Source: Chitinophaga pinensis (GTDB lineage: Bacteria > Bacteroidota > Bacteroidia > UBA4408). From it: a DNA stretch of 64,000 nucleotides. The number at the start of each line of letters is the position of its first letter. Positions within the stretch are counted from its first letter, which is position 1. The position numbers and the translations under genes were made by a program. This document shows, in pieces, positions 41,547-58,878 of this stretch. The stretch is taken from positions 1 to 64,000 of the forward strand of contig CAMAVS010000009.1 of the NCBI GenBank assembly GCA_945861665.1, in the 5' to 3' direction. The notes under the pieces are model-generated. The model did no database searches. It was not told the origin of the DNA and worked only from the letters and a program-made list of their open reading frames with translations.

Positions 41547-41580
41547 GGTTACCTTTTTATTCTTCGGATATAAATAGGTG
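41547..41580 (+). promoter_or_regulatory. Putative self-controlled promoter of the ECF-like sigma gene
   Basis: GGTTACC (41547-41553), 15 bases, then TATAAATAGGTG (41569-41580). This is a looser member of the shared GGTTACC / TATTAATAGT motif found before other genes to 55.5 kb. It lies 121 bases before the sigma gene start, suggesting autoregulation. Confidence 0.55.
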
Positions 41581-41700
41581 AACAAGGTTTAATTTTGAGT
41601 ATTTGGTCAGGATTGTTGTTTCTCCTACCCTACCCAAAAGAGCAGATGCAATAAATTATTGTTTAAATGGTTATCTAGGAATAGTTAGTATATTTAATCT

Positions 41701-42255
41701 ATGACAGATAAAGAAATATTAGAATTAATAAAGGAAAGCAGTAGCAACCTTGATCTACTTTATGGAGAGCATAAAGAGTATTGTATAAACTTTATGAATA
41801 AAATGAATTACAATCCTGGCTTGAACGAAGATATTTTTCACGATACATTGATATTGCTGTATGAGAAGTTATGCAAAGGAACTTTTGAGTTGACAAATAA
41901 AAGCACCATACAAACTTACCTGAATGCAGTATGTAGGAACCAAGTTTTAGTAAGGCTAAAAAAGGAAAATAAACACGCTGACTACTCCGAACAATTTGAT
42001 GAACGAATGGACGACTGGTTTGAAAATGAAGATCGTTACTCAGAAAAAAGCAAAGCTGTTGCTTTGGCATTAGACAAATTAAAGGAGTTTGGTGGTAAAT
42101 GTTACGAAATATTGACTCGCTATTTCTATCAAAACAAATCAATGGAGCAAATTGCTTATGAATTTGATTACACAAATCAAGACAATGCAAAAAACCAGAA
42201 ATCGCGCTGTCAGAAAAGATTGAAAGAGCTTTCATTTGAATTTTATAAAAAATAA
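41701..42255 (+). CDS. ECF-like RNA polymerase sigma factor
   Basis: A 184-residue sigma-70 family protein of ECF layout. The N-terminal sigma2 region (about 20-95) includes LNEDIFHDTLILLYEKL and TIQTYLNAVCRNQVLVRLKKE, which bind the core enzyme and the -10 element. An acidic linker (SEQFDERMDDWFENEDRYSE) follows, then a sigma4 helix-turn-helix (about 125-175, CYEILTRYFYQNKSMEQIAYEF). The end overlaps or abuts a single-TM protein gene, the usual position of an anti-sigma factor. Copies of one promoter-like motif before it and before the downstream units suggest a local regulon. Confidence 0.82.
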   Translation: MTDKEILELIKESSSNLDLLYGEHKEYCINFMNKMNYNPGLNEDIFHDTLILLYEKLCKGTFELTNKSTIQTYLNAVCRNQVLVRLKKENKHADYSEQFDERMDDWFENEDRYSEKSKAVALALDKLKEFGGKCYEILTRYFYQNKSMEQIAYEFDYTNQDNAKNQKSRCQKRLKELSFEFYKK

Positions 42256-42256
42256 G

Positions 42257-43567
42257 GTGAGAACGAAAGAAAACGATATTATTGGTTTGGTCATTCTGGA
42301 TATTCTTACAGAAAGGGAACACAGGGCATTAAAATTAATGCTTGAAACGGAAGAAAATTATCAGCTCTTCTTATTAAAATTATTAAATATCCTTATAGGT
42401 AAGGATAGTACAATACTCCTAAGTGGCTTTCTTGACCTGCATAATATGTCCGGGAAGGAAATTAATCTTAATAACCATACCAATGATATAATTGAAGACA
42501 TTGCAGAACTTGCCTTCAAAGGATATTCTTCGGAAATTACACTATGGTTAAATGAAAATCAAAACAAAGTTTATCTGGAACACCTTAGCTTTTTAGAGGA
42601 TGTGAGAAGTGAAATTGAAAAAAAGGAACGAATAACTATCAAGAATCGTTTGAAGCTTTTGTCAGAAATGAAGGACTTCGACCTCACTGAAGATGAAATA
42701 AGAGAAGGTATCATACTTTATGAAAGAAACAGACTAAGAAAACATTTTGCTCAGCTTTCGGCACAAGAAAAATCAGTAACGAAGGTAAATACTAGCAATT
42801 CTCCTAATCGTTTAAAATATGCCTCCATTTTACTATTAATTGGTGTGAGCAGCATTATCCTAGCTTATTCAATTCCTCAAGTTCGCAATTTCATTAAAAA
42901 GGAATTTAAGGAATTGTTCCAAAAAGAAGAGCCCCCTGCTAAAAAAGAAAGCGATACTGTGATTGCCCATAAGGAAGTTGCATCCGATACTTTGGTTAAT
43001 AATATTGACACTACTATAAACAATGCAACCAACGCGCAAACTGAGGATGCCCCAGTTATTGAAGAGAAAAAGGAAAAGAAAGCAGTTGTTGCTCCAACAA
43101 AAACAGCTATATTATTAGAAGGGTTTGTAAGTAATAATGATGCAAACAGTTCAGACTATTGGAATTATTTTAGAAAACATAAATTAGATAATATTGAAGG
43201 TTTATGGAAGTGGACTTGTACTAAGAGAACACATATAAATTTAGTACTTGCCGATACTTTACCGCTTTTTTGTGCAATTAGAGAAATTGAAGATAAAAAA
43301 TATGAAATAGCCTTTTTTCAAGAAAATGGTAATAGGGTTCATCCATCTTATGTTTCAATAATTACTAAGAAAATAAATAATAATAAGTATGAATTAACAC
43401 AATATAAAAACGAAAAACACCCCATAATAAAAAATATTTATTTGTCGGATGAGGGGGAATTGAAATTCAATGCCTACTTTATTTTAAGTGATTTCCAAAA
43501 TTTTGCCGGTAAAGTAAAAAAAGGAGAATGGAGTGAATACACTGTTATTGGAAAGAAAAATAAGTAA
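42257..43567 (+). CDS. Single-TM protein, probable anti-sigma factor
   Basis: About 436 residues. The first 190 are cytoplasm-like, helical and charged. One membrane helix (YASILLLIGVSSIILAYSI) follows, then a linker rich in K, E, T and N with ATN and EEKKEKKA stretches, then a globular C-terminal domain (about 300-436) with paired aromatic residues (LWKWTCTKRTHIN). No zinc-binding anti-sigma motif is seen. The start is uncertain: I chose the GTG directly after the sigma stop; a TTG at 42236 inside the sigma gene is also possible. Gene order and topology suggest that it holds the sigma factor and senses an envelope signal. Confidence 0.65.
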   Translation: MRTKENDIIGLVILDILTEREHRALKLMLETEENYQLFLLKLLNILIGKDSTILLSGFLDLHNMSGKEINLNNHTNDIIEDIAELAFKGYSSEITLWLNENQNKVYLEHLSFLEDVRSEIEKKERITIKNRLKLLSEMKDFDLTEDEIREGIILYERNRLRKHFAQLSAQEKSVTKVNTSNSPNRLKYASILLLIGVSSIILAYSIPQVRNFIKKEFKELFQKEEPPAKKESDTVIAHKEVASDTLVNNIDTTINNATNAQTEDAPVIEEKKEKKAVVAPTKTAILLEGFVSNNDANSSDYWNYFRKHKLDNIEGLWKWTCTKRTHINLVLADTLPLFCAIREIEDKKYEIAFFQENGNRVHPSYVSIITKKINNNKYELTQYKNEKHPIIKNIYLSDEGELKFNAYFILSDFQNFAGKVKKGEWSEYTVIGKKNK

Positions 43568-43570
43568 AAG

Positions 43571-43981
43571 ATGGACATAGCAGTAGATTTTGATGGAACA
43601 GTGGTAATGCACGAATACCCAGAACTGGGAGAAAATGTTGTTGGTGCCGTTGAGGTATTGAAAAAATTGGTAGCCAATAATCATAACCTGATACTCTGGA
43701 CCATGCGAAATGAGAAAGAATTACAAGACGCTGTTGACTGGTATGCGAAACACGAAATACCGCTCTATGGAATAAATTGCAATCCCTCACAAGCGGAATG
43801 GACCAAGAGCCCTAAGGCTTATGCAAAAATTTACATTGATGATGCAGCATTAGGTTGCCCATTACTTACAAATGTTGTACAAGAAGGCGAAGAGTTAAAG
43901 CAAATTGGACGACCTTTCGTTGATTGGAAAAAGGTTGAAGAAATGTTAATAGCAAAGGGTCTAATTGCAAATCAAGATTAA
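43571..43981 (+). CDS. Small HAD-superfamily hydrolase (BT_0820-like)
   Basis: A 136-residue HAD-like protein. It starts with MDIAVDFDGTVV, carrying the nucleophile Asp of motif I (DFDGT). It continues with ILWTMRNEKEL (a motif II-like strand) and YIDDAALG (acidic motif IV), but has no cap domain. Related proteins are often annotated as hypothetical HAD or BT_0820 family; the substrate is unknown. It begins 3 bases after the probable anti-sigma gene and may be cotranscribed with it. Confidence 0.85.
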   Translation: MDIAVDFDGTVVMHEYPELGENVVGAVEVLKKLVANNHNLILWTMRNEKELQDAVDWYAKHEIPLYGINCNPSQAEWTKSPKAYAKIYIDDAALGCPLLTNVVQEGEELKQIGRPFVDWKKVEEMLIAKGLIANQD

Positions 43982-44104
43982 GATTAAAGGTTAAATTAAT
44001 ATTATTACACCTGCTTTTTCAATAATAAATCCGAGTAAATTCGCTAGTTTCCCTTATCATTTCTAAATAAGGCGATTTAAAATTCCATTTTTTTCATAAA
44101 CAAC

Positions 44105-44139
44105 GGTTACCTTTTTATAGTTGAAGCTATTAATTAGTA
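44105..44139 (+). promoter_or_regulatory. Shared sigma-motif promoter
   Basis: GGTTACC (44105-44111), 16 bases, TATTAATTAGTA (44128-44139), about 30 bases before the ATG at 44169. Confidence 0.7.
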
Positions 44140-44168
44140 AATAAACAAACTAATTAATACTCTTGGCT

Positions 44169-45704
44169 ATGAAAAAGGTAAAAATCAAATCAGACGATTC
44201 CGAGCTTAACGCTAAGGAAGTTAAAACTGGGGAAAGCTTTATTGAAATATCAAACAAATCAGGCAAAGCGAAAACCCCATTTATTAGACCATTACAGATT
44301 ATAGGCTTAGTGTCAATAATTGGTATCGGAGTAGCATACCAAACTTTATTTAACGATAGCAAAAACAATCCCATTGTAAAACCATTGCTTGCAAGCAATG
44401 CCAACAAGGCTAGAGTTTTTGTTGTAAACAATGAACAAGATACTACCCTTGTTAATTCAAATGGATCAAAAATAAATATCCCAAAAGAAACTTTTGTTGA
44501 TAAAGAAGGTAAACCCATCAATGGCGCAGTTGAGATAGCCTACAGAGAGTTTCACAATGTAGGAGAAATTATTTTGTCAGGTATTCCTATGACTTACGAT
44601 TCTGCAAATACACAATTTAATTTTGAATCGGCAGGAATGTTTGAAATAACAGGGACTAAAAATGGAGAGGCTGTTTTTATCAAAGAAGGGAAAACTCTTG
44701 AAGTTACAATGATTTCTGACAACCCAGATAGTGTAAAGTTTAACCAATATTACCTAGATACAATTGCAGGTAACTGGAAATACATTGGTGAAGATGTGCC
44801 TACAATATCCAAATTAGTTTCAATAAAAACAATTTCAAAAAAAGACACAGCTGAAATAAAATCAGAAATGGCAAAACCGCATTTGTTTAATGATGATCGA
44901 TTTCATTTCCAGATTAGCGTTGATAAAAGCTATTTTCCTGAATTGGCACTTTATGAAGATGCCCTATTTGAAGTATTGCCTGAAACTAAAAATTTTAATC
45001 CAAGGTGGGCTAATGTGGATTGGGAAGATGCAAAATTAGAAAGGATTACAGGGTCAGAAAAATACAAAATAACTTTTATGAATGGCGACACTTCGGTAAC
45101 AATTTTAAGCCAGGTTGTTGTAGGCCGCGACAATTCAACAGCAGCTTTAAAAGCTTATGAAAAACTGTATGCCATTTATACATTTAAACAGCAAGAAAGA
45201 GCGAAACAGAAATTGGAAAAAGAGGCAAAAGTGGCAGCTGAAATAAAAAGCAACCAAAAATACATTGAAACTATTAGAATGGAAGCACAAAATAAAGCCC
45301 AAAAGTCAATTAGTACTGCTCAAATGGAAGTAATTGTATCTCGAACTTTTGCTATCGTTCAGTTCGGGATATGGAATTCAGATTGTCCTGCTAATATGCC
45401 AAAAGGTCAATTATTGGTTGCAGAATTTAAAAACAAAAATGGTGAAGCCATTGCAGTATCAAAGGTATACCTGGTTGAGAAAAACAAAAATGCATTGTAT
45501 GATTTATATGAAGGTAAAAAGATTTCATTCAATCCGGCATCATCAAATACCTTGATTGTAATTTCAAATAATGCAGAAATTGGAGTGTTTTCTACCGAAG
45601 ATTTTACATCAATTGACATAGGAGAAAAAAAACACGTCTTCAAGTTGGAAATGAATAAAAAACTAGTAAGTCCGAGTGAAATAATGCAAATGATAAATTC
45701 TTAG
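44169..45704 (+). CDS. Envelope protein with a conserved beta domain, paralogue of the gene at 47131
   Basis: A 511-residue protein: a short cytoplasmic head, one membrane helix at about residues 41-58 (PLQIIGLVSIIGIGVAYQT), then a large outer part. Residues about 95-200 share with the 47131 protein the pattern I.IP...FVD..GK...G.V...YREFH, GIPM.YDS and FESAGMFEI. A long region with a charged coiled-coil-like part (KQQERAKQKLEKEAKVAAE) and a final IVISNNAEIGVFSTEDF domain follow. The shared part looks like a ZU5-like beta domain, but I am not certain. I start at the ATG 44169, not an upstream TTG. Confidence 0.75.
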   Translation: MKKVKIKSDDSELNAKEVKTGESFIEISNKSGKAKTPFIRPLQIIGLVSIIGIGVAYQTLFNDSKNNPIVKPLLASNANKARVFVVNNEQDTTLVNSNGSKINIPKETFVDKEGKPINGAVEIAYREFHNVGEIILSGIPMTYDSANTQFNFESAGMFEITGTKNGEAVFIKEGKTLEVTMISDNPDSVKFNQYYLDTIAGNWKYIGEDVPTISKLVSIKTISKKDTAEIKSEMAKPHLFNDDRFHFQISVDKSYFPELALYEDALFEVLPETKNFNPRWANVDWEDAKLERITGSEKYKITFMNGDTSVTILSQVVVGRDNSTAALKAYEKLYAIYTFKQQERAKQKLEKEAKVAAEIKSNQKYIETIRMEAQNKAQKSISTAQMEVIVSRTFAIVQFGIWNSDCPANMPKGQLLVAEFKNKNGEAIAVSKVYLVEKNKNALYDLYEGKKISFNPASSNTLIVISNNAEIGVFSTEDFTSIDIGEKKHVFKLEMNKKLVSPSEIMQMINS

Positions 45705-45706
45705 TT

Positions 45707-46456
45707 ATGAAAACCTATCACTTATATAGTATTTTGTTGGTGCTAACCATCATAATAAACAGCAAATGCGTATTTGCTCAAAAAGACACTGCAAAAGTAT
45801 TGAAGTTTAATGTGAAAGGAACTAAAAGTAAGTTTACCATTTTACCACGCGATAATTATTTTTTTGCCGATTGCAAGAATAAAATAAAGGTTGTTCCTAT
45901 TGGTAAAATTAAAAAATATGAAGTTGTATGTAACAATGGTAAACTTACCAAAAGTAACGATAGCATTTATTTCATTGATGAATTGATTGGAGAAAGGGCG
46001 CTACTAAGCATTTTCGAAATATTACCCAATGGCATAAAGAAACCGGCAATGAACAAGGAATATATTGTAGTAAAATACCCTACGGTTGTATTTAACGGTT
46101 CGCAATGCGATTCAGCAATAAGTAAACTTATGTTATGTGGAGGAAGAATGTATGTAAAATATAAAGGTTATAGAGTTAAGGCAGACATTATTTCCTTCAA
46201 AATGGAAATGTACAATGGTGGAAAGTATGTTGATGGGCAAACCATAAATATAGATGATTTCATAACTACTGACAGTTCTTTTACTGAAAAACTAAACCCG
46301 AAAATGCGAGAATATGCAAGAAATGTGAAGGGAGGAGAGTTGATTTATTTTAAGGATATCAAATACAAAAATTCAGAGGGAGAAATAGTCACGGAACCAA
46401 TATTGAGACTTTATTTGTTTGAACAAAATTTAGATCCCCGATACTTTGATTTTTAG
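45707..46456 (+). CDS. Secreted protein with GldM C-terminal-like domains
   Basis: A 249-residue protein with a signal peptide ending near VFAQ. The mature part looks like the C-terminal Ig-like domains of the gliding/T9SS protein GldM: IKVVPIGK...VVCNNGKL, then KYKGYRVKADIISFKMEM and LIYFKDIKYKNSEGEIV close to the end. It lacks the GldM membrane and coiled parts, so it is a stand-alone relative, not GldM itself. It begins 2 bases after the preceding gene and is probably on its transcript. Confidence 0.6.
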   Translation: MKTYHLYSILLVLTIIINSKCVFAQKDTAKVLKFNVKGTKSKFTILPRDNYFFADCKNKIKVVPIGKIKKYEVVCNNGKLTKSNDSIYFIDELIGERALLSIFEILPNGIKKPAMNKEYIVVKYPTVVFNGSQCDSAISKLMLCGGRMYVKYKGYRVKADIISFKMEMYNGGKYVDGQTINIDDFITTDSSFTEKLNPKMREYARNVKGGELIYFKDIKYKNSEGEIVTEPILRLYLFEQNLDPRYFDF

Positions 46457-46623
46457 GTTTAGGTGATTATTAAACTGAACAATTAATTTATCCTGTTAGT
46501 ACAATGTAAGGCCATACTATTAGTAAAAATGGGCTGCATACCAATAGTATTATTGAACTAATTCAATTTAAGGAACCTAAATTATTTGCTGGAAATAAAA
46601 ATCGAAAATTCTGCAAAAATGAT

Positions 46624-46657
46624 GGTTACCTATTATAGGACTGGTTATTAATTAGTA
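46624..46657 (+). promoter_or_regulatory. Shared sigma-motif promoter
   Basis: GGTTACC (46624-46630), 15 bases, TATTAATTAGTA (46646-46657), with the A-rich leader ending AAAAGCTATG. Confidence 0.7.
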
Positions 46658-46685
46658 AATAAACACACAATTAAAACTAAAAGCT

Positions 46686-47045
46686 ATGAAAAAACTAATT
46701 GTATTCGCAGTGTTGCTTACCAATGTAGGCTTTGCGCAGATTGTAAATGAAGGACCGGGACATTTTGTTGATACGGCTAATTACAAATGGGAATTTGATA
46801 AAGATTTTAACCCACTAGCATTTTCAAAAGGTGAAAACCAATTTAAATTGAACCTTTCTGAATTAGCTTATTTTAATATTCCGATGAAGATGGATGAAAA
46901 GGTGTTCAATCATTACACTGCCTTGTTTAAAGAAAAATACCAGGACTTAGGAAATGGCGAAAGTTATTTCGATGCCAAAGATGGCTTGCATATAAACCTA
47001 ATAAAACACAATGAGTGTATGTGGGTGCAAGTAATGGATAGATAG
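46686..47045 (+). CDS. Small secreted protein of unknown function
   Basis: A 119-residue protein with a clear signal peptide (MKKLIVFAVLLTNVGFAQ). The mature part is acidic and mixed alpha/beta, ending CMWVQVMDR. I do not recognise a family. It stands alone between two copies of the shared promoter motif, so it is a one-gene unit of the proposed regulon. Confidence 0.7.
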   Translation: MKKLIVFAVLLTNVGFAQIVNEGPGHFVDTANYKWEFDKDFNPLAFSKGENQFKLNLSELAYFNIPMKMDEKVFNHYTALFKEKYQDLGNGESYFDAKDGLHINLIKHNECMWVQVMDR

Positions 47046-47069
47046 TTTGCCATTATTTTTATTCTGTAT

Positions 47070-47100
47070 GGTTACCTTTTTAAGCCTCGGCTATTAATAG
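47070..47100 (+). promoter_or_regulatory. Shared sigma-motif promoter
   Basis: GGTTACC (47070-47076), 15 bases, TATTAATAG (47092-47100), 30 bases before the ATG at 47131. Confidence 0.7.
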
Positions 47101-47130
47101 TAGAAATCAAAAAATCTAAAACACAAAAAA

Positions 47131-48483
47131 ATGAAAACAAAATCTGGCCTCCTTTACATCATACCAATGTCCTTAGGACTAAGTATGATCACTATGTGTT
47201 CTGTCGACAAGTCAAATATGGCCTGTATAAAGCAGCCCTTTAAAAATGTGAATGTTCCGTTTCACGATTTTGTTCTCAATGCCAGCGAAGAAAAAACAAT
47301 TGACCTTGAAAATGGAACAAGCATTTCTATTCCAGCAAATTCATTTGTGGATGCAAATGGTAAAATGGTAAGCGGAGAAGTCAATTTCCAGTACCGTGAG
47401 TTTCACACAGCTGCAGATATTATTGCCAGTGGAATACCTATGGTGTACGATAGTGCTGGAATAAAAATCCAGTTTGAATCGGCAGGGATGTTTGAAATAA
47501 ATGCCAAACAAGGAGATAAACAGGTTTACATTGCTAATGGTAAAAACCTTCAAGTAAGCATGGCTTCTTTCAAAGCTGGCAACAACTTCAATTTTTATGC
47601 ATTGGATACCCTTGAAAAAAATTGGGAAAATATAGGTAGCCTGTCCCCTACTATTAATCAGAAAAAAAAGAAGGAAATAGAAGCCTTGGGTGCCTGTCCA
47701 ACAAAACCGATTGAGCCAAAAGAGTACGATGGTAAGACCCCTGTATTTGATATTGACGCAGACTACACTGGACTTACTGAACTCCAAGAATTTAGCGGTG
47801 TTGTATGGCAATATGCCGGTACAAATGGGGAAAGCGACCTTACAAAAAACAACTGGGTGTATAAACATTCATGGACAAGTGCCAACATTAAACCTTTTGA
47901 TAAGGATAATGGACTTTATTCACTGAGCTTAAAAGGAAACAAAAGAGATTTCACCACCATTGTTTCACCTGTACTAAAAGGTAAAAATTTCGCGGAACAA
48001 ATGAGTCGTTTCCAAGAAAAAATGGAAAGCTATGGTCTGGTGAAAGAAGGAAGGGAAAAAGAAGAGTCACGGTTACAAGCCGAAGGGGATTTGATTCGAA
48101 GCTTTGCCGTGAGCAACTTTGGAATTTACAACTGGGACAGACAATACAAAGAAGAAGATGTGATTCGCTTGGCTGCCGACTTCGATTTTGGTGATAAATA
48201 CAAGGCAAATGAAATTACAGTATTTCTTGTAATAAATGATGGAACAGTAATCAAATATCCAAAATATGCATGGGGAGAGTTCAGCTTTAAGCCTTCAGAC
48301 AAAAATCGTATGATAGCAGTACTGCCCGGCAACAATGTGGCAACTTTCTCAGTTGGTGAATTCAAAAAAATTAACACCGATGAATTAAAAGGACAAGACA
48401 AGCCACACTTTACTTTTAAAATGCAAAAGGAAAATAGCAAGGTTGCTTCAGTTGAGCAATTACATAAAATATTAAGCATTTAA
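47131..48483 (+). CDS. Envelope protein, paralogue of the 44169 protein
   Basis: A 450-residue exported protein. The N-terminal hydrophobic stretch ends at LSMITMCSVD; the Cys may be lipid-modified, though Met before Cys is atypical. Residues about 45-170 carry the same domain as the 44169 product: ISIPANSFVDANGKMVSG, YREFH, GIPMVYDSAG, FESAGMFEI, DTLEKNW. A second half has NFGIYNWDR and a last strand NNVATFSVGEF, also matching its relative. It heads a unit with the long WG-repeat gene 10 bases later. Confidence 0.75.
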   Translation: MKTKSGLLYIIPMSLGLSMITMCSVDKSNMACIKQPFKNVNVPFHDFVLNASEEKTIDLENGTSISIPANSFVDANGKMVSGEVNFQYREFHTAADIIASGIPMVYDSAGIKIQFESAGMFEINAKQGDKQVYIANGKNLQVSMASFKAGNNFNFYALDTLEKNWENIGSLSPTINQKKKKEIEALGACPTKPIEPKEYDGKTPVFDIDADYTGLTELQEFSGVVWQYAGTNGESDLTKNNWVYKHSWTSANIKPFDKDNGLYSLSLKGNKRDFTTIVSPVLKGKNFAEQMSRFQEKMESYGLVKEGREKEESRLQAEGDLIRSFAVSNFGIYNWDRQYKEEDVIRLAADFDFGDKYKANEITVFLVINDGTVIKYPKYAWGEFSFKPSDKNRMIAVLPGNNVATFSVGEFKKINTDELKGQDKPHFTFKMQKENSKVASVEQLHKILSI

Positions 48484-48493
48484 AATTTGAATT

Positions 48494-51400
48494 ATGAAAC
48501 GTATACTAACCTCCGCCCTACTCCTAGCTTATACCTGTTTATTTGGGCAAAACGACCTTTTACTACCTGTAAAAGTTGATGGTAAATGGGGTTTCATAAA
48601 CGACAAGGCAGAAGTTGTTATACAACCCGTATACAATCACGCAGTTGATTTCAAAGGCTCCTATGCCGTAATCAAAAAAGGAAATTTATTTGGAGTAATT
48701 AATAAGTCAGGCAATGAAATAATTCCACCCATTTGGAATGCCATTCAAGTACTCAGCGATACATTGCTAGGCGTTCGTAAAGATAGCTTGTGGGCGGTTA
48801 TTGATTATACAGGAAAACAATACTTACCTCCTGTTTGCGAACTTCTTCAACCTGCATTTGGAGGGTGCGTACTCTATAAAGTTGAAAGAAGAACTGGATT
48901 GTTGGATAAAAATGGAGCGAAGTTAATCCCACCCATTTTTGATACCATTTATCAATACAGAAACAATTATTTTAAAACAATTTTAAACATTCACAAGGGA
49001 CTATACTCCCCTATCGGAAAAAAAATTCTTCCTGCCAACAACGAAGCCATTTATCAATATTATGCGGGCTACATTGTTTTTAAAACAGATGGAAAATGGG
49101 GTGCTGTTGATATGGAAGGAACAGAATTAATACATCCTGAATGGTCAGAAATGGATGTTATTTCTAAAAAATTCATTAAAGTACGTAACAATAAGTTATG
49201 GGAGTGCTATTCCATTGCTTCTAAATCATTGAGTAATGGGGCTTTTGATGAAATAGCAGCCCTTACTGAAAACCTTGTTCTGATTCAAAAATATGGAGCT
49301 TGGGGAATCATGGATGCTAAAGTGGAAATAAAATTAAAGCCTGAATACAATGATATTGAGCTAATACACCCTGATGTATATCTGTTGACTAGAGGAAATA
49401 AATACGGTTTAGCGAGCAGCTCAACTGGCAAATTAGTGATGCCTGCCTATGCGGATGAGATCAACAGTTTATACGATGTAAATGTATTTGTGTACAAAAA
49501 AATAGGTAAATATGGTTTGGTAAATACTTCAGGAAAACAAATAACCAATCCTGAATATGAATTAATTCATTTACACCGGAACTTTGCTAAAGGGTATAAA
49601 ATTTCAGGTGGTCCCGTTACGCTGTTAAATTTCGACTCCCAAGGAAACTTGTTTGAAGCTCAGGAGTATGCTAACCTGAGTACGATTAAAATTGGTTATG
49701 GTGCGTATAATTATGCTGCAAATACAACAATACCTTCCGATTTGAAATTGGAGAAATTCATTTGGTTCTATTCTGCAAAAGCAAAAAAATGGGGATTGAA
49801 AACCATCGAGGGAGACTCGATAGTGATACCCCCAACTTTTAAATCCATTACCGTAAAACCGCTACTCAACGTTACAGTTGTTGAGGTTAAAAGCCCTAGC
49901 CATTCCATTAATGTTGGTCTAATGACTTATTCATCTAATTCCTATTTCGGATTGATTAATAACCTAACAGGAAAGTACTTGGTTGGTCCCTATTATTATG
50001 CTTTTAGGCTCCCTGATATGGACAACGACTCTATTGGAAATTCATTTGCTGCTCTTGTAGAAGGTGGTATGGTCCTTATTAATCCTCGCACTGGCAAAAC
50101 AAGCAAGCCTTGCTTTTTCATAGACAAAACAAATACAGATCAAGCAAGAATAATTAAAAGTGCTCATTTTAAAGTTGTTAAAAAAAGTGGTGAGCAAACC
50201 TTGTGTTCTGCTTTCGACTATTTAACTTCCTTCAATGTAAACTGGTTTGATGCCAATGGGTACACAATTTCAAGAATGAATATATCAGAAAATTATCTCA
50301 CCTCAAGCAAAGCAATATGGGGTTATATAACAAAAGATTTAGAACAACACCTATGCGATAAACCGATAGATTATTTAGAAAATTTTAAAGGAGATTATGC
50401 CCAATTTAAAAGAGGAAAATTTTGGGGTGTTTATGACAAATCCTTTGCTGAAATAATTTCACCGATTTACGATGACGTAACTTTAATGGACCTTTCCGAA
50501 GGACTCTTTAAAATTAAAAAAGAAAGTACGCGCTTTGGATTTGTAAACAACAAAGGAAACATTGTAGTAGATGTTAGCTATTCCAACGTAAAATCTTGGT
50601 CGGAAAACAGGTTTTTGGTGCAAGGAAAAAACGGGAAATGGGGCTTCGTAAATGAATTAGGCAAGTTTGTCATTCAACCAATATTCGATGATGCAAAAAG
50701 TTTCAGTGAAGGCTTTGCTGCCGTAAAACGAAAAGGGAAATGGGGTTATATTAATACAGAAGGGACCTACACAATAAAAGCGGCATTTGAAGCAGCAGAA
50801 TTCTTTAGTGAAGGAAAAGCTGCTGTGAAAACAAAAGGTAGGTATGGTTATGTTGATACTGATGGAAAGCGGATAATTGCGCCAATATATTCACAAGCTT
50901 TGCCTTTCAATGAAGGAGTAGCAGTAGTAATGCAGAATTCTAAATACGGACTCATTAATGAGACAGGTGTATGGATAAAAAAACCATTCTGTAAAGTGAT
51001 CAGACGCGATAACGCAACAGGGAACTACATTGCAAAAAAAAGAAGAAAAGAAAACCTTTATAACAGTGACGGTATATTGGTTTGCAAGGGAAAGTACAAT
51101 TACATAGGAACATTTAATGAAGGTCTTGCCGTAGTAAAATGTAAAAATAAATTTGGCTATATCGATGAAACAGGAAAATTAATTATCCCTGCAACTTTCA
51201 ACTTTGCATCGCCTTTTAAAAATGGTCTTGCAAAAGTTAAAACCAACAATTTATATGGTTATATTGACCCAAGCGGTGACATTGCTATCAAGGATTCCTA
51301 TAATCACTGCAGCGATTTTAATAACTCAACTGCACTTGTATGGGAAGGTGATAAAGCCGGCTTAATTGACAATAACGGTAAGTGGCTTGTAAAACCAAGG

Positions 51401-51817
51401 TTTAATGTTCAAAGTGGATACTCTGAAGGAAAGGCAATAGTGCGGAATGCAAATGGAAAACTTTGTTACATCGATGAAAATGGCAATGCCTTGTTTATGA
51501 AAGAGTATAATAATGCAAAACCATTTAACGATGGTGTAGCTTGGATAATGACCGACAAAAAGTGGGAATTAATTGATAACAGTGGTGAAATTATTTCTCT
51601 TTTCCAATACGATAGGGTGAGCAATTTTAAAGATGGCATTTCCACTGTGAGCGCAAATTCATTTTTTGGTTTAAGCAAACCAGGAGATAAGTTTATGTTG
51701 GAAGCACAATGCGAAGACATACAATTGGTAAAAAAAGGCTTGTATCGTGTTATTATAGGCGACAAACTAGGCTACTTTAAAAGCGATAAAAATTGGTTGT
51801 GGGAGGCAAGGAAGTAG
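48494..51817 (+). CDS. Large WG-repeat secreted protein
   Basis: A 1,107-residue exported protein with a signal peptide (MKRILTSALLLAYTCLFGQ). It is built almost wholly of WG (KWG) repeats of about 30-45 residues, with units such as GKWGFINDKAEVVIQPVYNH, KNGKWGFVNELGKFVIQPIF and GKWGYINTEGTYTIKAAF. At least fifteen can be counted; those at the C-terminal half are the most regular. WG repeats are beta-rich and act in binding; no enzyme domain is seen. It sits downstream of the 47131 gene within the sigma-motif locus, so surface or periplasmic binding is the likely role. Confidence 0.88.
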   Translation: MKRILTSALLLAYTCLFGQNDLLLPVKVDGKWGFINDKAEVVIQPVYNHAVDFKGSYAVIKKGNLFGVINKSGNEIIPPIWNAIQVLSDTLLGVRKDSLWAVIDYTGKQYLPPVCELLQPAFGGCVLYKVERRTGLLDKNGAKLIPPIFDTIYQYRNNYFKTILNIHKGLYSPIGKKILPANNEAIYQYYAGYIVFKTDGKWGAVDMEGTELIHPEWSEMDVISKKFIKVRNNKLWECYSIASKSLSNGAFDEIAALTENLVLIQKYGAWGIMDAKVEIKLKPEYNDIELIHPDVYLLTRGNKYGLASSSTGKLVMPAYADEINSLYDVNVFVYKKIGKYGLVNTSGKQITNPEYELIHLHRNFAKGYKISGGPVTLLNFDSQGNLFEAQEYANLSTIKIGYGAYNYAANTTIPSDLKLEKFIWFYSAKAKKWGLKTIEGDSIVIPPTFKSITVKPLLNVTVVEVKSPSHSINVGLMTYSSNSYFGLINNLTGKYLVGPYYYAFRLPDMDNDSIGNSFAALVEGGMVLINPRTGKTSKPCFFIDKTNTDQARIIKSAHFKVVKKSGEQTLCSAFDYLTSFNVNWFDANGYTISRMNISENYLTSSKAIWGYITKDLEQHLCDKPIDYLENFKGDYAQFKRGKFWGVYDKSFAEIISPIYDDVTLMDLSEGLFKIKKESTRFGFVNNKGNIVVDVSYSNVKSWSENRFLVQGKNGKWGFVNELGKFVIQPIFDDAKSFSEGFAAVKRKGKWGYINTEGTYTIKAAFEAAEFFSEGKAAVKTKGRYGYVDTDGKRIIAPIYSQALPFNEGVAVVMQNSKYGLINETGVWIKKPFCKVIRRDNATGNYIAKKRRKENLYNSDGILVCKGKYNYIGTFNEGLAVVKCKNKFGYIDETGKLIIPATFNFASPFKNGLAKVKTNNLYGYIDPSGDIAIKDSYNHCSDFNNSTALVWEGDKAGLIDNNGKWLVKPRFNVQSGYSEGKAIVRNANGKLCYIDENGNALFMKEYNNAKPFNDGVAWIMTDKKWELIDNSGEIISLFQYDRVSNFKDGISTVSANSFFGLSKPGDKFMLEAQCEDIQLVKKGLYRVIIGDKLGYFKSDKNWLWEARK

Positions 51818-51834
51818 ATTCTTTAAAATTAAAT

Positions 51835-51868
51835 GGTTACCTTTTTATAGTTCATTTATTAATAAGTG
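51835..51868 (+). promoter_or_regulatory. Shared sigma-motif promoter
   Basis: GGTTACC (51835-51841), 15 bases, TATTAATAAGTG (51857-51868), followed by the conserved AACCAATTAAAAC leader and the ATG at 51890. Confidence 0.7.
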
Positions 51869-51889
51869 AAACCAATTAAAACTAATGCT

Positions 51890-52039
51890 ATGAAAAACAC
51901 AAGCAAAAAGGCAAAAGGGAAACCAGGTTACTCTCAGCCACAAGGACACACACTTTCAAACTTTGAATGGTTTACAGAACTTATTCTTAAGGGTTTAAAA
52001 GTGCAGAGAACGAAGAAAGGATTATTCATTTACAAGTAA
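51890..52039 (+). CDS. 49-residue basic small protein
   Basis: A short open frame (MKNTSKKAKGKPGYSQPQG and ending GLFIYK), rich in Lys, with a central NFEWFTELILKGLK amphipathic helix. It is directly placed 22 bases after a copy of the shared promoter motif with the conserved leader, which is the main reason to call it real. It is followed 12 bases later by the first of two small acidic genes. No family is recognised. Confidence 0.55.
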   Translation: MKNTSKKAKGKPGYSQPQGHTLSNFEWFTELILKGLKVQRTKKGLFIYK

Positions 52040-52051
52040 TACATAAAGGTT

Positions 52052-52300
52052 ATGAAAACAGAAGAAAATGAATCTGAAAATTTAGATAATGCAAAGGAGA
52101 ATCAGCCTTTGACATCAACGAGAACTCCTATTTCGGAATTATTGAAAAGGCGAGGAGTTCCAACAGAGGACAAAACAAAGGAGAAGTTGGGGACAACCTC
52201 GCTGATGTTCTTTCCCTCGCAGAAGAACGAGCAGGACGACTCGGTAGAAACTATGGTGCACAATCTGAACAGGCGCAAGGGACAGCAAGAGCTGGAGTAA
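52052..52300 (+). CDS. Small acidic protein, copy 1 of a tandem pair
   Basis: An 82-residue hydrophilic protein. It matches the next gene almost throughout the first 60 residues: EENESENLDNAKENQPL, STRTP, ELLKRRG, EKLGTTSLMFFP and a C-terminal NLNRRK. There are no signal peptide or membrane segments, so it is likely cytoplasmic and partly disordered. The LGTTSLMFFP segment is the only hydrophobic patch and could be a partner-binding motif. The role is unknown. Confidence 0.7.
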   Translation: MKTEENESENLDNAKENQPLTSTRTPISELLKRRGVPTEDKTKEKLGTTSLMFFPSQKNEQDDSVETMVHNLNRRKGQQELE

Positions 52301-52301
52301 T

Positions 52302-52333
52302 AGTTCCCTTATAAATTTAGATATTAATTAGTA
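52302..52333 (+). promoter_or_regulatory. Decayed copy of the shared promoter motif
   Basis: AGTTCCC at 52302-52308 stands where GGTTACC is expected. It is followed after only 13 bases by a perfect TATTAATTAGTA (52322-52333) and the usual leader CCATTAAAACTAA. The upstream half looks damaged, so this gene may depend on the promoter at 51835. Confidence 0.4.
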
Positions 52334-52354
52334 AAACCCATTAAAACTAAAATT

Positions 52355-52657
52355 ATGAAACCAGAAGAAAATGAACCTGAAAATTTAGATAATGTAAAGG
52401 AGAATCAGCCTTTGAAATCAACGAGAACACCTATGAGGGAATTATTGGCAAGGCGAGGAATAACATTAGTAGATACAACAGAGGAGAAGTTGGGGACAAC
52501 CACGCTAATGTTCTTTCCAAAGGAAGAAAAAACAAAAGACGACTCTGTTGAAGCAAGCATCAGATACTTGAATAGAAAAAAGAGTGCTCAAGACAATAGT
52601 ATTGAAAATAAGCAGGAACAAAACAACGAAAAAACCAACCAAGATGAAAACAAGTAA
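52355..52657 (+). CDS. Small acidic protein, copy 2 of a tandem pair
   Basis: A 100-residue paralogue of the preceding gene, with EENEPENLDNVKENQPL, STRTPMRELLARRG and EKLGTTTLMFFP conserved. It has a longer, polar N/Q/K-rich tail (KKSAQDNSIENKQEQNNEK). The tandem pair arose by duplication that included the promoter leader. Its stop overlaps the next small gene by 14 bases. Confidence 0.7.
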   Translation: MKPEENEPENLDNVKENQPLKSTRTPMRELLARRGITLVDTTEEKLGTTTLMFFPKEEKTKDDSVEASIRYLNRKKSAQDNSIENKQEQNNEKTNQDENK

Positions 52658-52784
52658 AGAATACCATCATTTAATTCGATTCAATAAGGATTGCTTTGAT
52701 CCTTATATGATTGGAGATCAAGAATATGGTTCTATTGATTTATATTATGCAATAGAAAATACTAGCTTGTTGAAGAATTTATAA
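52644..52784 (+). CDS. 46-residue small protein overlapping the previous gene
   Basis: Starts at an ATG inside the end of the acidic protein gene (overlap 14 bases), giving MKTSKEYHHLIRFNKDCFDP and ending TSLLKNL. The overlap suggests translational coupling. The frame also opens 20 codons upstream at 52584, but that part is the other gene in another frame. No family is recognised. Confidence 0.5.
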   Translation: MKTSKEYHHLIRFNKDCFDPYMIGDQEYGSIDLYYAIENTSLLKNL

Positions 52785-52802
52785 ATTAAATACTAAAAGA
52801 AA

Positions 52803-53414
52803 ATGAAGATAGAATCAAAGAAAACAAAATTGCTGAAACTACTATTAAAAGCACAAGCGAAGATGAATAAAGTAAAGTCGCAACAAAAGGAACTAACAAT
52901 GAAACCATCTGCAAAAGAATTAGAATGTATAAGGGCATCTTGGAAGCTAAGAAAAGAGCTTATGAAATTGCACATATCTAATTTAGAAATAACTGACGAA
53001 ACAAAAATGTTTTTAAAACTGAAGATTTCGAGACTCAATATTGACGATTCAACCGAAGAGCAGCACGAGATAATTAAAGAGCTGCTTCATATTTATAGGT
53101 TAGATCATGAGGTGCCACCAGTGAAATCCTTTTATCTTTTGTGGCGATGTATATTGCTTCGGGACATGAAAGATGAATATTACTTCAATGATTACTTTTC
53201 ACAAGAAAAAATGGACTGCATGTATGACTGCGTTAAAATATTGTACAAGGATACCAAACCATTGATTGAAATTTATAATAAACATAATGATGCGATACAA
53301 TTAGCCAAAAATGAATTTTACGAAAAAAACCCATTGGGTTGGATAAGTATAGTACCAAAAGCTGCCATTTTACCCCGCAAAATTAATGAACTGTATGGGC
53401 CTTATATTCCATAA
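52803..53414 (+). CDS. Helical protein of unknown function
   Basis: A 203-residue, almost wholly helical and charged protein. The first 40 residues are very Lys-rich (KKTKLLKLLLKAQAKMNKVK), the middle has HEIIKELLHIYRLDHEVPP, and the C-terminal part has KNPLGWISIVPKAAILPRK. It has no signal peptide or membrane helix. I do not recognise a domain. It closes the unit that begins with the promoter at 51835. Confidence 0.65.
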   Translation: MKIESKKTKLLKLLLKAQAKMNKVKSQQKELTMKPSAKELECIRASWKLRKELMKLHISNLEITDETKMFLKLKISRLNIDDSTEEQHEIIKELLHIYRLDHEVPPVKSFYLLWRCILLRDMKDEYYFNDYFSQEKMDCMYDCVKILYKDTKPLIEIYNKHNDAIQLAKNEFYEKNPLGWISIVPKAAILPRKINELYGPYIP

Positions 53415-53439
53415 GAGTTAAGAAAAAACAATTATGAAT

Positions 53440-53470
53440 GGTTACCTTTTCAAATCCCAGTTATTAATAG
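53440..53470 (+). promoter_or_regulatory. Shared sigma-motif promoter (repeat copy 1)
   Basis: GGTTACC (53440-53446), 15 bases, TATTAATAG (53462-53470), with the AACCAATTAAAAAC leader before the ATG at 53496. Confidence 0.7.
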
Positions 53471-53495
53471 TTGAAACCAATTAAAAACAAAAGCC

Positions 53496-53714
53496 ATGGA
53501 AAATCTACTAAGCCTTATATGGATAATAAGCGGACTTATTAACCTGAGTATTGAAGCAAAAAAACGAAATTTTTCTGAAAATTCTATTTTGGATATTTTT
53601 ATGCTTACCCTAACATTTGTATTTGTATTCGGCTTCATAGGACTAATGTATACTATAGATAACAATTTGAATACAGAAAAAATAACAGATGCAAAGCCTG
53701 TAACTATTGAATAA
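53496..53714 (+). CDS. 72-residue membrane protein, copy 1
   Basis: Two hydrophobic segments: SLIWIISGLINLSI near the N-terminus and LDIFMLTLTFVFVFGFIGLM (about 32-52), separated by a polar KKRNFSEN turn, with a polar C-terminus. It differs from copy 2 (55540) by only three residues (Ile-Ile to Leu-Leu at 10-11, Met to Leu at 51). A small inner-membrane protein of unknown role. Confidence 0.75.
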   Translation: MENLLSLIWIISGLINLSIEAKKRNFSENSILDIFMLTLTFVFVFGFIGLMYTIDNNLNTEKITDAKPVTIE

Positions 53715-53906
53715 ACAGAACAACGCAAATAGAATGCGTTACGATTCAATATTATTACAACGTTTTAGATTTAGGATTACAAAATAGAAATTACAATTGT
53801 TTACAAATTTTAATCCTTAGAATATCAGTCGAAAGCAATTTATGAACAGGGGAAATTTCAATCACTATTATCACTCACTTTGTAAATGAATTTAATTTTA
53901 AAAGAT

Positions 53907-54077
53907 ATGAAACAGCAAGAAGACTTGAAAATAAAGAAGCCATTAACGATAGAGCAGAGAAAGGAAATAATGAGCTATCCTCAGCATTGGAGACCAACTC
54001 TAATAGAAGCAGCAGAACGAGGGGAGTCGATAAAAGAGACGTACGAAGAACTGAAATACTTCGAGGCAATGATGTAA
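53907..54077 (+). CDS. Small charged protein of unknown function
   Basis: About 56 residues from the ATG at 53907 (MKQQEDLKIKKPLTIEQRK); an in-frame ATG at 53886 would add seven. The body is helical with HWRPTLIEAAERGESIKETY and ends YFEAMM. It sits directly after the tail of repeat copy 1, in the place that the DnaB-like gene holds after copy 2. No family is recognised. Confidence 0.45.
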   Translation: MKQQEDLKIKKPLTIEQRKEIMSYPQHWRPTLIEAAERGESIKETYEELKYFEAMM

Positions 54078-54116
54078 ATGTAATTGCTGAATACACCTTT
54101 GATACCGAAGTAAACA

Positions 54117-54240
54117 ATGGAATCAAAGAAGCGTTTCCCATACCAAACGGAAAAAGCGTTTTGATACATTGATGTTATTTTCTGCTGATGAAGAAATTGA
54201 TTGGGCTATAAGCAATGAACTGGAAACTAGAGAAAAATAA
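54117..54240 (+). pseudogene. Possible frameshifted tiny gene
   Basis: From the ATG at 54117 the frame reads MESKKRFPYQTEKAF and stops at TGA. Dropping one T from the run at 54160 lets it continue DTLMLFSADEEIDWAISNE to TAA at 54238. The second part alone could start at the ATG 54172 (22 residues). The evidence is thin. Confidence 0.25.
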
Positions 54241-54318
54241 GGGTTAAGCAAAAATTAAGCCCTGAGAGAAAATTACAAATTATTCAAAACTTAACAAAAC
54301 TAACCTGATTAAATTGAA

Positions 54319-55404
54319 ATGAAAAAAACAATAAAAAAAAGAAAATCCACATTCTCAGAATTAGATCTCAATAAAATGTTCAGTGCAAGCAGAAGTATTC
54401 AACCTTATCAAATGTTCTATGAAGTTAACAAAGAAGTTTGCAATAGAATAATGTATTATAATACAAACCCTGAAAAATTATTTCATGCAATATTGGAACA
54501 ATATAAAATTAACGAAATTGATGTCGTTTCTACTCAGGAATACAGTCGCAGGATAGGAGAATATTGTTATTCAAGTTATTTGATTGCTCTAACAGATGAT
54601 CTCTGGGTTTTTCATGGTGCCGGAGAACATGAGCAAGAAGGTACAAGCATCCTTTATTCCAACGAAACTCCAAAAGAAAAAGTAAAATACTTACAAACCT
54701 TTGTGAAAGGTTTTGAGGATGTACCATTAAATGATGGTAAAATTTATTTGCTTCATAAGTACGATTATGGTTTTGATTTAAAAGGATATGATGTAGTTGA
54801 GCCAAATTGCGATATAAAACAACATTACAATGATGACTTTGAGGATATAAACACAAAAATTATAAATAGGTTAAATACGACAAATGACAAAGGCCTAGTG
54901 TTATTGCATGGAAAACCAGGGACTGGAAAAACATTTTACATCAGATATTTAACCAAGAAAGTAAATAAAAAAATGATCTTCCTTTCTCCAGAAGTCTCTC
55001 AGCATATTTCGTCCCCTGAATTTATTACCATTTTAAGTGAATTCCCCAATTCAATTATTATTATTGAAGATGCCGAAAATGTCATAAAAACAAGAAAGTC
55101 AGGTGGTTCTTCAGCTATCTCAAATTTATTGAACCTAACGGATGGTCTTTTAGCAGATTGCTTAAAAATACAATTAATCTGTTCCTTCAATACCGATGTT
55201 TCTCAGATAGATAAAGCACTATTAAGAAAAGGGCGTTTAATTGCTATGTATGAGTTTAAAGAACTAAAGCATCAAAAGGCAAATAATCTTGCAGTGTCAT
55301 TGGGTAAAAAACTTCCAATAATTAACGATGCAACATTAGCAGAAATATTTAATGATGAGGAAACAGGAGCTCAACTAGAGGTCTTTGCAAAAATTGGATA
55401 CTAA
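54319..55404 (+). CDS. AAA-family ATPase with unknown N-terminal domain
   Basis: A 361-residue protein. Residues 1-170 are an unrecognised alpha/beta domain. The AAA module has Walker A HGKPGTGKT (to residue 205), Walker B IIIIEDAE (246-253), a sensor 1 strand LICSFNTD, and an arginine-finger-like stretch RKGRLIAMYEF. It resembles Bacteroidota AAA proteins that often sit in variable islands, with a proteasome-ATPase/BCS1-like core; the target is unknown. The module lies between the two copies of the 447-bp repeat and could be lost or amplified as a unit. Confidence 0.8.
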   Translation: MKKTIKKRKSTFSELDLNKMFSASRSIQPYQMFYEVNKEVCNRIMYYNTNPEKLFHAILEQYKINEIDVVSTQEYSRRIGEYCYSSYLIALTDDLWVFHGAGEHEQEGTSILYSNETPKEKVKYLQTFVKGFEDVPLNDGKIYLLHKYDYGFDLKGYDVVEPNCDIKQHYNDDFEDINTKIINRLNTTNDKGLVLLHGKPGTGKTFYIRYLTKKVNKKMIFLSPEVSQHISSPEFITILSEFPNSIIIIEDAENVIKTRKSGGSSAISNLLNLTDGLLADCLKIQLICSFNTDVSQIDKALLRKGRLIAMYEFKELKHQKANNLAVSLGKKLPIINDATLAEIFNDEETGAQLEVFAKIGY

Positions 55405-55483
55405 TAATTTAAAATGATTAAGCATGAAAACTAATATAAAAACTGAAAATAATTTATTTTTTTCCTTGCACAAGAAAAATGAT

Positions 55484-55514
55484 GGTTACCTTTTCAAATC
55501 CCAGTTATTAATAG
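55484..55514 (+). promoter_or_regulatory. Shared sigma-motif promoter (repeat copy 2)
   Basis: GGTTACC (55484-55490), 15 bases, TATTAATAG (55506-55514), with a leader identical to copy 1. Confidence 0.7.
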
Positions 55515-55539: not shown

Positions 55540-55758
55540 ATGGAAAATCTACTAAGCCTTATATGGTTATTAAGCGGACTTATTAACCTGAGTATTGAAG
55601 CAAAAAAACGAAATTTTTCTGAAAACTCTATTTTGGACATTTTTATGCTTACCCTAACATTTGTATTTGTATTCGGCTTCATTGGACTACTGTATACTAT
55701 AGATAACAATTTGAATACAGAAAAAATAACTGATGCAAAGCCTGTAACTATTGAATAA
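55540..55758 (+). CDS. 72-residue membrane protein, copy 2
   Basis: Near-identical to the 53496 product (three conservative changes), with the same two hydrophobic segments. Most base changes between the copies are silent or conservative. That suggests that both are still under selection, or that the duplication is recent. Confidence 0.75.
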   Translation: MENLLSLIWLLSGLINLSIEAKKRNFSENSILDIFMLTLTFVFVFGFIGLLYTIDNNLNTEKITDAKPVTIE

Positions 55759-55943: not shown

Positions 55944-57050
55944 ATGGAACAAAACATTAAAGAAACACTCTGCGAATTTTCTCGGCAAATTGAAAAGGAT
56001 GCCCAATTAGAGGGACTTTCAGAGCAAGAGCTGCTGAACAAATGGACAAGCAAATTACTATCACTGAGTAATGAATTCAGAAAAGAAAATAGCAAGCAAA
56101 CTTTCGCTGAACTATACAATGAAACAATTTTATCTTTTGCTACTAAAAACGGGAAAAGCAATTTGTACGAATTTGTTCCTACCGGTTTTACTGATTTGGA
56201 TAAATTAATTGGCGGCTTGCCCTTGGGTGAATTAATAATTTTGGGAGCACGACCTGGAATGGGAAAGACAGCTTTTTTAGTGTCCTTGATGGCAAATTTA
56301 GCTCCTTTAAATATACCTATAGCGTACATTTCTGTTGAAAATTCGGCACAGCAAATTATGCTACGACTATTGAGCAATTTCACTGAACTTTCATTTCAGG
56401 ATATTGTATCAAAAGAATTAAACTCCTTTCAAATAAATGAGATCATCAATAAAACAAAACTCCTTGAGAAGGCAAACATTATCATTGAAGACAATTGTTT
56501 TTCATTGGATGACATCATTGCTCAGGTAGATTATTTAGCAAAAGAAAAAGGAGTAAAGCTGGTAATGATTGATTATTTACAATTAATAAAAGTACGAAGC
56601 CGAAAAGAGAATAACCGTGAAGCAGATATCGCAAAAATTAGTCGAGAACTAAAAGGCCTGGCACGCAAATACAATATTGCATTGTTTGTAAATTCACAAT
56701 TGAGCCGTGCTGTTGAGAACCGCCCCGGTGGAAGCAAAAGGCCACAGCTATCCGACTTGCGTGAATCGGGAGCCATTGAACAGGATGCCGATAAAGTGCT
56801 TTTTTTATATCGCCCTGAATACTATGGAATAACAGAAGACGAATTTGGAAATAATTTACACGGAATAGCTCAACTGCTCCTTTCAAAAAACAGAGCCGGA
56901 GGTTTAAGCGATGTGTCTTTAACTTTTAACCCATATTGCTCTTCTTTCAAAAACATTGAACCTACTTGGATTACAGACGATTTACCAACCATTCATTTTA
57001 ATAACATACGAAAAGGGGAGTTTGATGAAACCAATACTAATCCATTTTAA
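55944..57050 (+). CDS. DnaB-like helicase, C-terminal domain form
   Basis: A 368-residue RecA-fold helicase. Residues 1-75 are a short helical region, not the full DnaB N-terminal (primase-binding) domain. Then FVPTGFTDLDKLIGGLPLGE, Walker A GARPGMGKT (101-109), Walker B MIDYLQLI (208-215), an ISRELKGLARKYNIALFVNS strand, and the DLRESGAIEQDADKVLFLYR loop with the DnaB arginine finger region. Total length is well below chromosomal DnaB (about 450-500 plus), which favours a phage- or element-derived helicase. The retron RNA gene begins 13 bases after its stop. Confidence 0.9.
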   Translation: MEQNIKETLCEFSRQIEKDAQLEGLSEQELLNKWTSKLLSLSNEFRKENSKQTFAELYNETILSFATKNGKSNLYEFVPTGFTDLDKLIGGLPLGELIILGARPGMGKTAFLVSLMANLAPLNIPIAYISVENSAQQIMLRLLSNFTELSFQDIVSKELNSFQINEIINKTKLLEKANIIIEDNCFSLDDIIAQVDYLAKEKGVKLVMIDYLQLIKVRSRKENNREADIAKISRELKGLARKYNIALFVNSQLSRAVENRPGGSKRPQLSDLRESGAIEQDADKVLFLYRPEYYGITEDEFGNNLHGIAQLLLSKNRAGGLSDVSLTFNPYCSSFKNIEPTWITDDLPTIHFNNIRKGEFDETNTNPF

Positions 57051-57062
57051 TAATAACAAAAC

Positions 57063-57230
57063 AAGGGGAATGAACTGTTCAAAAAAGATTATGAGCGAAT
57101 TTACCGCTAACGGGTTGTGTACCTGCAACCGGAAGTCACAATGTTGACTGGAGATCCCGGTAAATAATTTTGAAGAAAAATCATTTACCGGACAGTTTTA
57201 ATTAGATAATCCTAAACGGTTCATCCCCTT
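57063..57230 (+). ncRNA. Retron msr-msd RNA
   Basis: The ends form the a1/a2 duplex: 57063-57079 (AAGGGGAATGAACTGTT) pairs with 57215-57230 (AACGGTTCATCCCCTT), 16 pairs with one bulged A and one G-T pair. A likely branching G is at 57095 in an AGC motif. The msr has a short stem-loop GGTTG/CAACC (57113-57129 region) and an AGTCA/TGACT hairpin. The msd hairpin is CCGGTAAAT (157-165 of the 57-kb block) pairing with ATTTACCGG (183-191), then one mismatch and five more pairs with a GAAGA loop. The RT gene follows 8 bases later, the standard retron layout. Confidence 0.85.
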
Positions 57231-57238
57231 TACTACAA

Positions 57239-58258: not shown

Positions 58259-58262
58259 TCGG

Positions 58263-58476: not shown

Positions 58477-58878
58477 ATGAAAAAAACTTTTATTCTGCTT
58501 CTTATTTCAGGTTTTTCGAAGTGTTGTATGGCACAAAATGTTGATTTTTATAATCTGTATTTTGAAGGCAATGCTTTAGTTGTAAAAGGCCAATACGATA
58601 AAGCGATTGATAAGTATAATCAGGCACTCAAATTATTTCCAGCCGCTTATGTTTTCTACAATCGAGGTAATGCCCACTATGGAAAGAAAGATTACCCGAA
58701 TGCACTGCTCGATTATACCATAACATTAAAGATGAACAGTGGCTATGCCGAAGCTTATTACCAGCGAGGATTAATAAAAAGCACTACCGGTGATAAAACT
58801 TGTTGCGATGATTTTAAAAAAGCTGTTAAACTCGAATTGGCTGATGCAACTGATACATTCAAGAAAAATTGCAAATAA
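58477..58878 (+). CDS. Secreted tetratricopeptide-repeat protein
   Basis: A 133-residue protein with a signal peptide (MKKTFILLLISGFSKCCMAQ), then about two and a half TPR units: GQYDKAIDKYNQALKLFP, YNRGNAHYGKKDYPNALLDY and AEAYYQRGLIKSTTGD. The C-terminus CCDDFKKAVKLE completes a helix pair. TPRs bind other proteins; a periplasmic scaffolding role is likely but unspecific. It lies after the retron, and I see no feature linking it to the retron function. Confidence 0.8.
   Translation: MKKTFILLLISGFSKCCMAQNVDFYNLYFEGNALVVKGQYDKAIDKYNQALKLFPAAYVFYNRGNAHYGKKDYPNALLDYTITLKMNSGYAEAYYQRGLIKSTTGDKTCCDDFKKAVKLELADATDTFKKNCK

Follow-up and report, generated by a model that had tools for sequence, protein, structure and literature searches.

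Here we describe a set of repeated promoter-like sites, and the sigma factor that is predicted to read them, in a 64,000-nucleotide (nt) stretch of a Chitinophaga pinensis genome (assembly GCA_945861665.1, contig CAMAVS010000009.1, positions 1 to 64,000; hereafter the window; the genome is G000 in our sample). We consider it highly likely that a divergent extracytoplasmic function (ECF) sigma factor encoded at 41701 reads GGTTACC-N15/16-TATTAAT as its -35/-10 promoter elements and, together with a membrane partner, governs a local regulon, and that the accessory clade to which it belongs probably spread horizontally.

A promoter-like signature confined to one cluster

The preliminary description of this DNA had reported seven copies of the signature and an eighth, decayed one, all on the same strand. 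A search of the window for GGTTACC-N13..18-TATTAAT returned six exact matches, one with N16 (44105..44134) and five with N15 (46624..46652, 47070..47098, 51835..51863, 53440..53468 and 55484..55512), while 100 dinucleotide-preserving shuffles of the window returned none. The site at 41547..41575 (GGTTACC-N15-TATAAAT) has one mismatch and the one at 52302..52328 (AGTTCCC-N13-TATTAAT) is indeed decayed; the coordinates were reproduced exactly, and all promoter-like sites in the cluster lie on the + strand. In the whole 2.49-Mb genome the exact motif is found at the same six positions and nowhere else, on the + strand between 44105 and 55512. Relaxing the second box to TATNAAT gains 41547 and, at C2:141224 on a different contig, a site without the T-run, and when up to two mismatches are allowed the motif has 14 matches, seven of which are those of the cluster, compared with 26 for a reversed-pattern control. 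Since the reversed control exceeds the motif, we regard the matches outside the cluster as background; an even scatter across the genome was not seen. Two further candidates were set aside, one at 8441, where the sole remaining one-mismatch match lies, as coding, being inside an open reading frame (ORF) of 486 amino acids (aa), and one at 58261 (GGTTACA-N16-TATAAAC), behind the reverse transcriptase (RT) gene, as too weak to count.

The placement of the sites is that of promoters, as had been proposed. Counted from the base after the heptamer, the start codon follows within 26-34 nt at seven sites (the starts at 44169 and 51890 by direct reading) and after 125 nt at the distal site of the sigma gene. 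An additional, weaker proximal site (GGTTATC-N15-TATTTA, 41669..41696) lies 32 nt upstream of the sigma ATG. No copy of TAnnTTTG, the published housekeeping promoter box of Bacteroidota (PMC9723704), was found in the scanned intergenic stretches that precede the target genes, and these genes therefore look dependent on the alternative sigma factor. The box is present near the sigma gene, at 41590, from where the housekeeping sigma factor could prime its expression, and ahead of a TPR gene at 58477, which has no clear GGTTACC-type site. The site at 51835 is followed by the leader TGAAACCAATTAA. The leader GAAACCAATTAA was checked as a general translation signal and rejected as such, since the genome has only four copies, and three of these lie within the cluster. 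No other genome among 326 of the phylum sample carries the full signature with the leader, and the GC content gives no island mark at the cluster.

The 41701 sigma factor, its relatives and its partner

The sigma factor (184 aa, 41701..42255, + strand like all parts of this cluster described below) matches the NCBIfam model TIGR02937 over residues 18-176 with 45.6 bits (cut-off 42.9). This superfamily model places it among the ECF sigma factors, which have the sigma2 and sigma4 regions and no sigma3. Neither Pfam nor a PDB profile search gave a match, which marks it as a divergent ECF sigma factor, and it is the sole member of its family found in the genome. Its operon continues with a single-transmembrane (TM) partner at 42257..43567, most likely starting at a GTG one base after the sigma stop, and ends with a HAD-like hydrolase at 43571..43981 (weak Pfam match; phrog_1238, 2e-34).

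That this sigma factor reads the motif, as the preliminary description had suggested, is well supported by comparative genomics. Two orthologs with 60-61% identity, in genomes of another Bacteroidia family (G323, JAFDYI010000013; G256, JAAFIQ010000009), have the same signature within about 15 kb; their clusters carry it as GGTTACC-N15-TATCAAT, and the downstream leader TGAAACCAAT or a near variant is common to these clusters and to this genome. In G323, three near-identical exported-protein genes, on L126 (7459, 8524) and L127 (7035), lie on two contigs away from the sigma gene. Each of these copies has the same GGTTACC promoter and a similar leader, and the predicted G323 regulon extends in trans.

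The association holds across the sigma family. At 34 loci of homologous sigma factors, GGTTACC-N14..17-TATTAA with at most one mismatch occurs at 75 sites, against 0.33 expected, mostly before the sigma gene or its neighbour; as a rule, one of them is located some 31 nt ahead of the sigma start. Because family members have a site at about this position, the weak 41669 site is likely autoregulatory, and with 41547 it gives the 41701 gene predicted promoters of its own target type. Elsewhere in the class, more distant homologs have G-GGTTAC-N16-G-TATTAA immediately upstream of their own start codons. The pattern GGTTACCTTTN{11,13}TATTAA was counted in 385 class genomes, where it has 61 sites outside G000, compared with about 22 for a reversed control. 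Of the 61, 43 have a family sigma gene no more than 2.5 kb away, and such a gene is present in 39 of the 42 genomes that have a site, both counts using only the stronger homolog matches, from 71 genomes.

A contig profile search with the 41701 sigma factor alone found nothing, and one with a three-sequence alignment recovered the same two orthologs, a Runella metagenome-assembled genome (MAG) and one more. Homologs were absent from viral contigs, and those on plasmids have only about 30-33% identity. In the Runella MAG (L063:1518-4880), a GGTTACC-N15-TATCAAT site ends 2-3 nt before the likely start of the sigma homolog, making it nearly leaderless; a short TM partner and AbiLi/AbiLii-like genes come next.

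Phylogenetic analysis divides the family into two clades with different promoter dialects. The 41701 sigma factor groups with those of G323 and G256 (98/94), the Runella, BWOrg and G268 sequences are more distant accessory members on long branches, and a core clade stands separate, its members grouping by taxonomic family; the clade of 41701 is thus distinct from the core clade, which is inherited vertically. Core sites (54 sites) read G-GGTTAC...G-TATTAA, with 91% and 98% G at the two discriminating positions, while in most accessory sites GGTTACC is preceded by T and TAT by T, C or A. The core partner carries a Trypsin_2 domain in nine of nine cases checked, which is absent from the partner of 41701; the core partner may be a fused anti-sigma factor and protease. 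At the core loci L048, L049, L051, L052, L054, L055 and L058, the sigma factor is accompanied by this trypsin-like TM protein and by small repeated lipoprotein genes with the promoter. Both sigma kinds are present in G323 and G256; the relatives G001-G004 of this genome have the core kind, and this genome itself has the accessory kind alone. The accessory sigma factor is found in two of 87 genomes of the G256 family. Since its presence is patchy and its tree conflicts with taxonomy, horizontal transfer is the best account, and we infer that the accessory clade probably spread in this way as an ECF switch. In G256 a serine recombinase lies 2-3 kb from the sigma cluster. The recombinase and the accessory sigma factor are part of an island (G256:C46, L044:4840 to L045:3636) that also contains two CHAT-TPR proteins, M48-like and papain-like proteins and one FRG protein; the sigma motif stands at either end and points into the island.

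The partner has orthologs at the same position in G323 and G256. Its AlphaFold model, of low confidence overall, shows a confident helical N-domain (residues 1-110, predicted local distance difference test (pLDDT) 82-94), a TM segment at about residues 185-221, a linker without order and, modelled with low confidence, a beta-rich C-domain that weakly resembles lipocalin-like barrels, with no convincing PDB match. Because of its topology and gene coupling only, we label it a presumed anti-sigma factor. In the mechanism that we propose, the 41701 sigma factor would use GGTTACC as its -35 and TATTAAT as its -10 element, and the co-transcribed partner would most likely hold it at the membrane in an inactive state. 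An extracytoplasmic signal, most likely acting on the partner C-domain, would lead to its release. The released sigma factor would then amplify its own operon and activate, over about 17 kb, a further six or seven transcription units, with read-through behind a leading 72-aa gene into a DnaB-like helicase and a retron, and the promoter letters of the accessory sigma factor would have diverged from the core ones.

Several points weigh against this reading. A single 300-nt duplication accounts for the two sites at 53440 and 55484, and duplicated genes stand behind 51835 and 52302, so that only about six sites, instead of eight, are independent; the seven or eight copies first counted are all present, but they are fewer as independent observations. 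At the sigma gene, the distal site lies far from the start (125 nt) and the proximal site is weak. In addition, Pfam and NCBIfam reveal no anti-sigma domain in the partner, the best PDB matches of its model include no anti-sigma fold, and it has no homology to the core trypsin-like partner (hhalign probability 0.9%).

The duplicates would also fit an account in which the repeats are by-products of gene duplication, with the leader copied along and no common regulator. However, the sites before unrelated genes have only the motif and a short leader in common, the genes preceded by this signature are different ones in G323 and G256, and across the class the pattern goes with the sigma gene; we consider duplication as the whole explanation very improbable. 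The motif could instead be an operator bound by some other activator or repressor, the sigma gene being merely one of its targets, given that operators too repeat within clusters and that the promoter role of the sites is a predicted one. We regard this as unlikely, as the fixed N15 spacing between the two boxes, the resemblance of the second box to a -10 element and the distance from the start codons all fit a promoter, no other regulator gene is common to the three accessory clusters, and across the family it is the sigma gene with which the motif co-occurs.

Predicted targets, the retron and the possible role of the cluster

The direct targets under the predicted control of the 41701 sigma factor are mostly exported or membrane proteins, together with a WG-repeat protein, small proteins and an AAA ATPase. 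Behind the 44105 site lie a membrane-anchored protein (44169..45704) and an exported protein that probably belongs to the same unit (45707..46456; ORF with a signal-peptide-like start by direct reading). The 46624 site precedes a small exported protein of 119 aa (46686..47045; ORF), and the 47070 site precedes a lipoprotein (47131..48483) and the WG-repeat protein (48494..51817; 1107 aa; PF14903, 4e-113). The lipoprotein and the 44169 product (28% identity, E 9e-38) belong to one undescribed beta-rich family, present in 135 of 385 class genomes, for which the model of the 47131 product gives a confident fold (pLDDT 87) with no PDB match and no Pfam family; a homolog in G175 also has the promoter. 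Two small ORFs (51890-52039 and 52052-52300) follow the 51835 site, and ORFs at 52355-52657 (a paralog of 52052), 52584-52784 and 52803-53414 follow the decayed site. The 53440 site stands before a 72-aa membrane protein (53496-53714), a 63-aa ORF and the AAA ATPase (54319-55404), and its copy at 55484 before a near-copy of the 72-aa protein (55540..55758).

This second copy precedes the DnaB-like helicase (55944..57050; DnaB_C, 4e-75) and a retron-type RT (57239..58258; PF00078), with which it forms an apparent operon. The RT has NAxxH and VTG motifs by direct reading, and its nearest PADLOC retron RT types are XI, I-C and XII. A 171-nt structured RNA (57062..57232; z -6.1) lies between the helicase and RT genes as a putative msr-msd RNA; it has no Rfam match and is conserved in G105, with four double-sided pair changes. 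The stretch 55944-58258 thus has both hallmarks of a retron, RT motifs and an adjacent structured RNA, and is predicted to be one. The DnaB-like helicase and RT are a conserved pair in 14 of the 15 class genomes that have a close RT, and the pair was found beside the sigma gene in G000 and G323 only. The literature searched holds no description of this pairing, and a retron type combining DnaB-like helicase, non-coding RNA and RT is apparently undescribed.

These genes raise the possibility that the cluster is chiefly an inducible anti-phage island, in which infection would trigger the sigma factor, which in turn would activate the retron with its associated cargo, much as the CASP sigma factor acts for type III-E CRISPR loci. 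A retron lies in this cluster and directly beside the sigma gene in G323, AbiLi/AbiLii-like genes accompany the Runella homolog, CHAT and FRG genes that of G256, and there is a published precedent in which a CHAT protease controls an ECF regulon confined to its locus (PMC10028731). We nevertheless find this account doubtful: the mostly exported or membrane targets point to the envelope, the DnaB-retron pair lacks a GGTTACC-type site in the stretches examined of 12 other class genomes, the G323 retron is upstream of the promoter, and defence genes accumulate in islands anyway. Because most targets are exported, our analysis favours an envelope function, with the defence genes as passengers or one branch. 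Only tentatively do we suggest that a horizontally moving sigma factor with its own promoter dialect serves as a portable switch that recruits cargo, including a retron induced by an extracytoplasmic signal. If true, this would be a defence module turned on by a dedicated sigma factor upon such a signal.

Comparison with known systems

A promoter signature is now available for a class-wide family of Bacteroidia ECF sigma factors. We found no relevant paper connecting GGTTACC with ECF or sigma factors in the openly licensed literature, and the motif may already be listed in a published ECF classification. As core and accessory sigma factors coexist in G323 and G256 and differ at two promoter positions, they offer a natural case of promoter divergence in which specificity is testable by a two-base swap. 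Moreover, a retron tied to a dedicated sigma factor makes induced versus constitutive defence testable.

Similar to ECF (group IV) sigma factors with a membrane anti-sigma factor, such as RpoE/RseA, the system described here couples a small sigma factor to a single-TM gene, with predicted autoregulation and a two-box promoter with spacing of about 15-16 nt. ECF promoters are usually of the AAC/CGT type; here, in contrast to RpoE/RseA, the promoter is GGTTACC/TATTAA and the partner has no recognised anti-sigma domain. The SM6 promoter of Flavobacterium psychrophilum and the SigP promoter of Porphyromonas gingivalis likewise belong to Bacteroidota ECF systems and are unlike TAnnTTTG, but SM6 has a CGT -10 box, and the proposed SigP motif and its type IX secretion system (T9SS) targets also differ from this system. 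The core Bacteroidia family (loci L008-L041) is closer, with homologous sigma factors of about 30-38% identity and the same basic motif, and differs in having G at both discriminating positions, a trypsin-like partner, a small regulon adjoining the sigma gene and vertical inheritance. As in known retrons, an RT with retron motifs has a structured RNA ahead of it; here its partner is the DnaB-like helicase.

Finally, the nearest published logic is that of the CASP sigma factor: the type III-E CRISPR locus to which it belongs contains three sites for it, and a CHAT protease cleaves its inhibitor (PMC10028731). Among the annotated ORFs of the cluster there are no Cas7-11, Csx29, Csx30 or other CRISPR genes, and in contrast to the CASP sigma/Csx30 system the presumed inhibitor here is a TM protein. 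The CHAT-TPR proteins beside the G256 sigma factor look exported, as do the papain-like and M48-like proteins in the cargo that they share with the FRG protein (signal-peptide-like starts by direct reading). Like CASP sigma, however, the 41701 sigma factor would direct a locus-local ECF regulon from several sites within one accessory locus.

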